A DNA stretch of 64,000 nt, taken from assembly GCF_014652695.1 (NCBI RefSeq), contig NZ_BMZH01000001.1:1-64000 (forward strand), in the 5' to 3' direction. The notes under the pieces are model-generated. The model saw only the letters and a list, made by a program, of their open reading frames with translations, was not told the origin of the DNA and made no database searches. Position 1 is the first letter of the stretch, and each line of letters starts with the position of its first letter. Shown piece by piece: positions 54,282 to 57,947 of the stretch. Origin of the DNA: Algimonas arctica (lineage in GTDB: Bacteria; Pseudomonadota; Alphaproteobacteria; Caulobacterales; Maricaulaceae). A program made the translations under genes and the position numbers.

Positions 54282-54887
54282 CTACTTCTTTCGGAAGCTG
54301 TCCAAACTGACGACTTTCGGCGTATCGCCTTCAGTGGCGGCGTCATCAGAATTCGTGTCATCAGTCGTATCGTCATCAGCATTATCGGCTGATTTTTTAC
54401 CGAACTTTGGCGCCGCTTTAGCAGGAGCGCCTAGCGTTGATGATATGGGCTTGCTCAAACCTGTGGTCGCGGGTGATGCTAATGATGTGACAGGCGAAAT
54501 GTCCAAGACTGGACCGCCCTCCATCTCGGCAGGAGTTTCAAAGGCCAATGAAAAGCCCACGCTCGGATCATGAAAACGCGTGATCGCGTGATAGGGCACA
54601 CGAAGGTATTTCGGGATGCCCCCGAACTTCAATGTGACTTCGAAATCATCGGCATTCGCGGCGAGATCCCAATATTGGTGTTCTAAGACGATGGTGATTT
54701 CTTCCGGGTATCGCTCCGCCAGAGAATCATCAATTTCTGCGCCCGGATACCGGGTCAGGAATGTGATATAAAAATGGTGCGCACCGGGCAGGCCATCTTC
54801 CCGAATGACACGACGAATCGCGTCTCGGACAATCCCGCGTAGCGCAAGGCTCCGCATTTGCTCGTAATTCATCAGGTCTTGACTCAT
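54282..54887 (-). CDS. sspB: ClpXP adaptor SspB, alpha type
   Basis: The 201-residue protein is the alphaproteobacterial SspB, which tethers ssrA-tagged proteins to ClpXP. The substrate-binding domain spans about residues 10-125 (HHFYITFLTRYPGAEIDDSL, PEEITIVLEHQYWDL, VTLKFGGIPKYLRVPYHAIT, FHDPSVGFSLAF). An acidic, low-complexity linker follows, and a short C-terminal ClpX-binding tail, VVSLDSFRKK. The tmRNA gene that encodes the tag lies under 3 kb away on the same strand. The 5' end overlaps an open frame of the divergent P450 region. Confidence 0.93.
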   Translation of the reverse strand: MSQDLMNYEQMRSLALRGIVRDAIRRVIREDGLPGAHHFYITFLTRYPGAEIDDSLAERYPEEITIVLEHQYWDLAANADDFEVTLKFGGIPKYLRVPYHAITRFHDPSVGFSLAFETPAEMEGGPVLDISPVTSLASPATTGLSKPISSTLGAPAKAAPKFGKKSADNADDDTTDDTNSDDAATEGDTPKVVSLDSFRKK

Positions 54888-57544: not shown

Positions 57545-57880
57545 GAGGGAAAAGTGGTGGGTTTCTGTTGCCAGCTACCCACCGGAGCCCGCCTAGGGGT
57601 CTGAAACCCTAGGAGTTTAGTTCGGAATCATCCGGACTGCTTACGCAGCCAAGGCGAAATCCTCAGTATAATTGTCATTTGCAATTACTGTTTATGGACT
57701 TTTAACGGAGTCCACACGAACGAAAGCTTACGTCTTTAGGCGTTTGTCGATGCTATTTCGGCCCCATCAGAAGCCCACCAAATTAATGTTGGGTTTGTGG
57801 TGGAGCCGCCGGGTACTGCCCCCGGGTCCAATCCGCTTATTACACGCGCGTTTATCGTCATATCTGGCAAGCCAGCTCTT
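57545..57880 (-). ncRNA. ssrA: tmRNA, circularly permuted two-piece (alphaproteobacterial) form
   Basis: On the minus strand the acceptor part comes first. Its T arm is CCGGG-GGCAGTA-CCCGG, and CGGCTCC-ACCA ends with CCA at 57800-57798. After a 32-base spacer the coding part begins GGGGCCG (57765), which pairs with CGGCTCC to rebuild the acceptor stem (one G-T pair), followed by AAATAGCATCGACA. A hairpin GGACT/AGTCC (57713-57696) precedes the tag frame, which runs from resume codon GCA at 57682 to TAA ending at 57641 and encodes ANDNYTEDFALAA. Downstream hairpins CCTAGGG/CCCCTAGG and GGTGGGT/ACCCACC close it. A TATATA/TATAGT box at 57888-57881 may be its -10. Outer ends are approximate. Confidence 0.93.
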
Positions 57881-57919
57881 ACTATATAGTGCATCCGCGT
57901 CGAAAGTTCCAGTCCCAAA

Positions 57920-57947
57920 CGAAAAAGCCGCCCCGAAGGACGGCTTT
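57920..57947 (-). terminator. Terminator after the DUF1508 gene
   Basis: On the minus strand AAAGCCGTCC and GGGCGGCTTT form a 10-bp stem (one T-G pair) around a TTCG loop, followed by TTCGTTT. It lies 22 bp beyond the stop of the gene at 57970 and just before the tmRNA promoter region, so it separates the two units. Confidence 0.88.

Follow-up and report, generated by a model that had tools for sequence, protein, structure and literature searches.

The window analysed here is a stretch of 64,000 nucleotides from Algimonas arctica, a member of a genus placed by the NCBI taxonomy in the Alphaproteobacteria, Maricaulales, Robiginitomaculaceae. Its minus strand carries a permuted gene for tmRNA (ssrA), which spans 57553-57915 according to the alpha_tmRNA model of Rfam (RF01849). 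The match, obtained by the covariance search of the minus strand that the initial annotation had proposed as a check, is highly significant; it covers positions 1-355 of the 355 in the model and scores 251.4 bits against a curated cut-off of 50, with E-values of 1.7e-73 when a 1.5-kb stretch is searched and 7.2e-72 when the whole window is searched, and is far beyond chance. Further support for a permuted two-piece tmRNA, as had been claimed, includes a match to RF04321, a newer general model of permuted tmRNA (57859-57641, 139.2 bits), and the assignment by ARAGORN of the interval 57892-57550 to the permuted class (tmRNA*), with the same tag, ANDNYTEDFALAA. The locus had thus been placed correctly, although not its ends: in place of 57880 and 57545, the 5' end lies at 57915 by the model or 57892 by ARAGORN, and the 3' end at 57553 or 57550, respectively.

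Read along the minus strand, the acceptor piece is encoded first (57798-57880); it ends in CGGCTCC (57808-57802) followed by ACCA (57801-57798). There follows an intervening spacer of 32 nt (57797-57766), the removal of which is predicted, and then the coding piece (57765-57553, with a putative 3' end), which opens with GGGGCCG (57765-57759), the 5' half of the acceptor stem, and contains the tag frame (57641-57682). These letters are as the initial annotation gave them; its statement that the two strands rebuild a 7-bp stem in permuted order also holds, but only for strands in the sense of the stem, both halves being on the minus strand of the DNA. All seven positions pair, six of them as Watson-Crick pairs and the third as G·U (G 57763 with T 57804). 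In tmRNA, a G·U at this position is reported to be completely conserved and to be used by alanyl-tRNA synthetase (PMC3985003). The two chains of the Caulobacter tmRNA are listed as 213 residues (chain A) and 83 residues (chain B) (PMC1168896). The coding piece, if it ends where the model ends, has the same 213 nt; a length of 83 nt, measured from the CCA end, would place the start of the acceptor piece at 57880, which was the limit set by the initial annotation and is, for this 5' end, a guess.

The same architecture is found in the ssrA genes of the genus and family, for which 137 genomes were searched. RF01849 matches (E <= 0.001) were obtained in 122 of these, 121 of them over the cut-off, leaving 15 without; amongst genomes of good quality, the figure is 91 of 95. 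The comparison rests on 128 loci, including that of A. arctica itself (L001), with a few genomes contributing two loci; L049, which is on the same contig as L033, and loci that had not been fetched for tmRNA were left out. A pattern for the acceptor stem and ACCA matched 124 of the 128. The stem is CGGCTCC/GGGGCCG in 114 cases, CGACTCC/GGGGTCG in six and CAGCTCC/GGGGCTG in four, these being compensated changes in which the G·U is kept. The third 5' position is G in all 124 matched loci, and this G alone is informative about conservation of the G·U because the pattern required CTCC. Of the unmatched loci, L003 has the stem CGACTCC/GGGGTCG and differs further on, where the pattern is strict; L131-L133 are second or weak matches (96.5, 31 and 23.1 bits). 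Second tmRNA matches also deserve mention in two drafts, namely G053, in which L044 and L052 are both full-length and have different tags, and G119, in which the second match is the divergent L131; contamination of the drafts would be a simple explanation. Thirteen loci are without an ARAGORN tmRNA despite an Rfam match and a complete, readable LAA tag (L028, L030, L062, L071, L072, L076, L083, L086, L088, L089, L090, L107 and L123). A search of plasmid records in distant mode gave 13 records, one of which covered at least 80% of the query, with identities mostly of 60-80%; the matches were in Paracoccus, Sinorhizobium, Methylobacterium, Pseudorhodobacter, Shinella and Acetobacter.

Spacers in the 124 loci are 23-62 nt long with a median of 32 nt, exactly the length in A. 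arctica, and the idea that the spacer here is unusual was rejected on these grounds. All 124 fold at -3 kcal/mol or lower (as raw folding energies), that of A. arctica at -6.5 kcal/mol. A short spacer that folds might simply be retained, with the permuted tmRNA working as one piece. However, it would then interrupt the 7-bp stem ending in ACCA, while the 3' end of tmRNA must be free for charging; the variation in spacer length also speaks against retention. The Caulobacter relative, moreover, is reported to work as a two-piece tmRNA (PMC3985003). A one-piece RNA is, in our judgement, extremely improbable.

The pairing of simple stems was also assessed in an alignment of 106 rows (104 distinct), which remained from 129 sequences once 23 that did not match the selecting pattern had been dropped; that pattern fixed CTCCACCA. 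Over the 104 rows, the acceptor stem is paired in 100% of 728 cells, with a change from G-C to A-T at one pair. Within helix 2, P2a (TTG/CAA) is paired in 100% of 312 cells, P2b in 92.7% of 409 and helix P2c in 99.4% of 520; for the 5' hairpin, the 3' CCTAGGG stem and the 3'-end stem, the values are 96.5% of 399, 92.9% of 691 and 97.9% of 533 cells, respectively, and all six show changes on both sides. The pairs of the T arm fall within the range of 93-100% and are invariant, hence without changes. When the same helices are slid by one or two columns as a control, 4-66% of cells are paired, a comparison in which the counted structure is favoured because the window and the Rfam alignment were the sources from which it was drawn. 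Both the acceptor stem and helix 2 are present, with support from covariation. The CGG/ACG part of helix 2 is paired in only 67% of 312 cells (0-52% when slid), its third position being G-A in A. arctica and in 103 of the 104 rows. Three short hairpins folded alone gave z-scores of -2.27, -0.91 and -0.60; the last two values mean that two of the three are no better than shuffled sequences. A simple scan for a sigma-70-like promoter found none just upstream of ssrA; its one promoter-like match lies inside the gene, and chance alone would give 0.6. Neither the weak CGG/ACG pairing, nor the hairpin z-scores, nor the null result for a promoter weakens the identification as tmRNA. A terminator-like hairpin (57924-57947, minus strand) is situated behind the DUF1508 gene, and its end precedes the tmRNA match by 9 bases, which leaves little room for a separate promoter.

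The whole assembly (3,247,683 bases in 49 contigs, 99.98% complete) contains a single RF01849 match; amongst 14 control genomes, only Caulobacter vibrioides has one. The model for standard one-piece tmRNA (RF00023) has no match over its cut-off of 47 in the A. arctica genome, the best of nine matches scoring 34.8 bits, and one that is below the threshold (27.1 bits) is the mRNA-like part of the gene at 57553-57915. A better tmRNA candidate elsewhere in the genome, which had been named as an outcome that would count against the initial annotation, was therefore not found by either model, and a pseudogene or second copy was rejected for the same reason. The minus-strand interval 57915-57553 is almost certainly the sole ssrA of this genome, a gene for the ribosome-rescue RNA in its circularly permuted, two-piece alphaproteobacterial form. 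Since tmRNA genes are described as frequent integration sites of genomic islands (PMC11915505), the locus could instead be a decayed or displaced copy, for example a fragment from island integration, and the functional gene would then lie at another site. This we consider scarcely credible: the match to the model is full-length, the stem is intact, the tag frame is open, and neither model leaves another candidate in a nearly complete assembly. In addition, the neighbours in the window recur beside ssrA in relatives, amongst 51 loci compared over short flanks (M20-like in 22, SspB in 22, P450-like in 14, APP1 in four and DUF1508 in two). A fumarase-like gene that comes after sspB in the window was found in eight of the 51. 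We assigned the names fumarase, P450 and M20 from our own reading of the proteins, whereas SspB, APP1, DUF1508 and SmpB were assigned by family search. SmpB is encoded in the genome by an open frame of 161 aa (PF01668, 183.5 bits).

The tag frame of this sole ssrA runs from GCA at 57682 to the stop codon TAA at 57641 and gives ANDNYTEDFALAA, with an Ala-Ala end; both the letters and the coordinates had been given correctly in the initial annotation. A complete tag can be read in 122 of the 128 family loci, that of A. arctica included. There are 36 kinds of tag, ending in LAA in 119 loci, IAA in two and MAA in one; positions 5-6 are occupied by 15 different residue pairs, amongst which Tyr-Thr occurs in five loci. 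The exact tag ANDNYTEDFALAA is found in A. arctica only (one of the 122 loci), and ANDNYSEDFALAA (six loci) and ANDNYTEEFALAA (four loci) are one residue away from it. Tyr-Thr and LAA had been contrasted with Phe-Ala and Val-Ala-Ala, which we take to be the corresponding residues in Caulobacter. The residues noted for A. arctica are indeed present, but the hint of novelty falls away, both features being common in the family; LAA rather than VAA is the family norm, as 119 of the 122 tags end in this way, and we rejected the notion that the LAA end is unusual. Judged from the sequences, A. arctica differs from Caulobacter in a way that looks like normal variation. In Caulobacter, the tag is annotated with a resume codon at 82-GCG-84 and a stop at 121-123, that is, 13 codons (PMC1168896). 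The SsrA tag of Agrobacterium tumefaciens, ANDNNAKEYALAA (PMC12493166), is like ANDNYTEDFALAA in its 13 residues, ANDN start and ALAA end, and differs from it in the middle residues. Two loci of one genus (L084 and L118, in G126 and G129) have GAT at the resume position, where an alanine codon is found elsewhere, so that the tags would read DNDNFAHETALAA and DNDNFAQETALAA; in both, the frame given by ARAGORN starts three codons further upstream.

The gene for SspB, the adaptor for tagged proteins, lies downstream of ssrA on the same strand, at 54282-54887 (PF04386, 132.1 bits), with 2.7 kb between the two genes. In the family, 118 genomes have both ssrA (over the cut-off) and sspB. The two genes are on one contig in 88 of them and on different contigs of draft assemblies in the other 30. 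In 86 of the 88 one-contig genomes, sspB follows downstream of ssrA on the same strand, at most 12.3 kb away (within 5 kb in 83 of these and within 500 bases in 30, with a median of 1.5 kb), and in the remaining two (G005 and G098) the genes are far apart. Distances were taken from the end of the RF01849 match to the start of the PF04386 match; the weak match in G087 and the second, weaker matches in G109, G114 and G115 were left out of the count. Amongst the papers listed in literature searches, none states the neighbourhood of ssrA and sspB in its title or abstract opening. It is possible that the linkage has been published before; a 2007 paper on alphaproteobacterial SspB may bear on it. 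It is conceivable, though unlikely, that keeping the two genes as neighbours on one strand allows the tag and its adaptor to change together, in which case positions 5-6 (Tyr-Thr here) would be co-evolving with the binding groove of SspB. The linkage that enters into this proposal was counted directly.

How the gene is likely to work can be set out by analogy with its family. The gene itself, the order of its pieces, their pairings, the tag frame and the genes for SmpB and SspB can all be read from the DNA; transcription, processing, charging, tagging and degradation are steps that we infer. A single transcript would contain the acceptor piece, then the 32-nt spacer, then the coding piece. Spacer removal, with the resulting two-piece RNA held by base pairing, is described for permuted tmRNA (PMC3985003, PMC11915505). 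Here, removal would fall to the enzymes of tRNA processing, probably RNase P, which would generate the 5' end at 57765, and tRNase Z, for the 3' trimming that leaves CCA at 57798. Base pairing in the acceptor stem and in helix 2 would keep the two RNAs associated, and the molecule would be charged with alanine by way of the G·U third pair. Bound to SmpB, it would enter stalled ribosomes, where translation would switch to the tmRNA frame at GCA 57682, add ANDNYTEDFALAA and end at TAA 57641; the tagged protein would then pass to ClpXP with the help of SspB.

Compared with the two-piece tmRNA of Caulobacter crescentus (RF01849), the A. arctica RNA has in common the permuted order, an acceptor stem containing a G·U, the ACCA end and the spacer, as well as the inter-piece helix 2, a 13-codon tag and fitting piece lengths (PMC1168896), and differs by ordinary sequence drift. 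The permuted tmRNA is listed as one of three major gene forms, and a 2025 database contains 11,946 unique sequences of this type (PMC11915505). The A. arctica ssrA is at most another example of this known form; it is an ordinary gene for the standard RNA of ribosome rescue, with the rearranged two-piece layout long known in alphaproteobacteria. The main value of the present analysis is correct annotation, namely the span and the tag of the ribosome-rescue RNA of A. arctica. For the family, the table of 36 kinds of tag in 122 loci, taken with the linkage of ssrA and sspB, could serve in testing for joint evolution of the tags and their adaptor.
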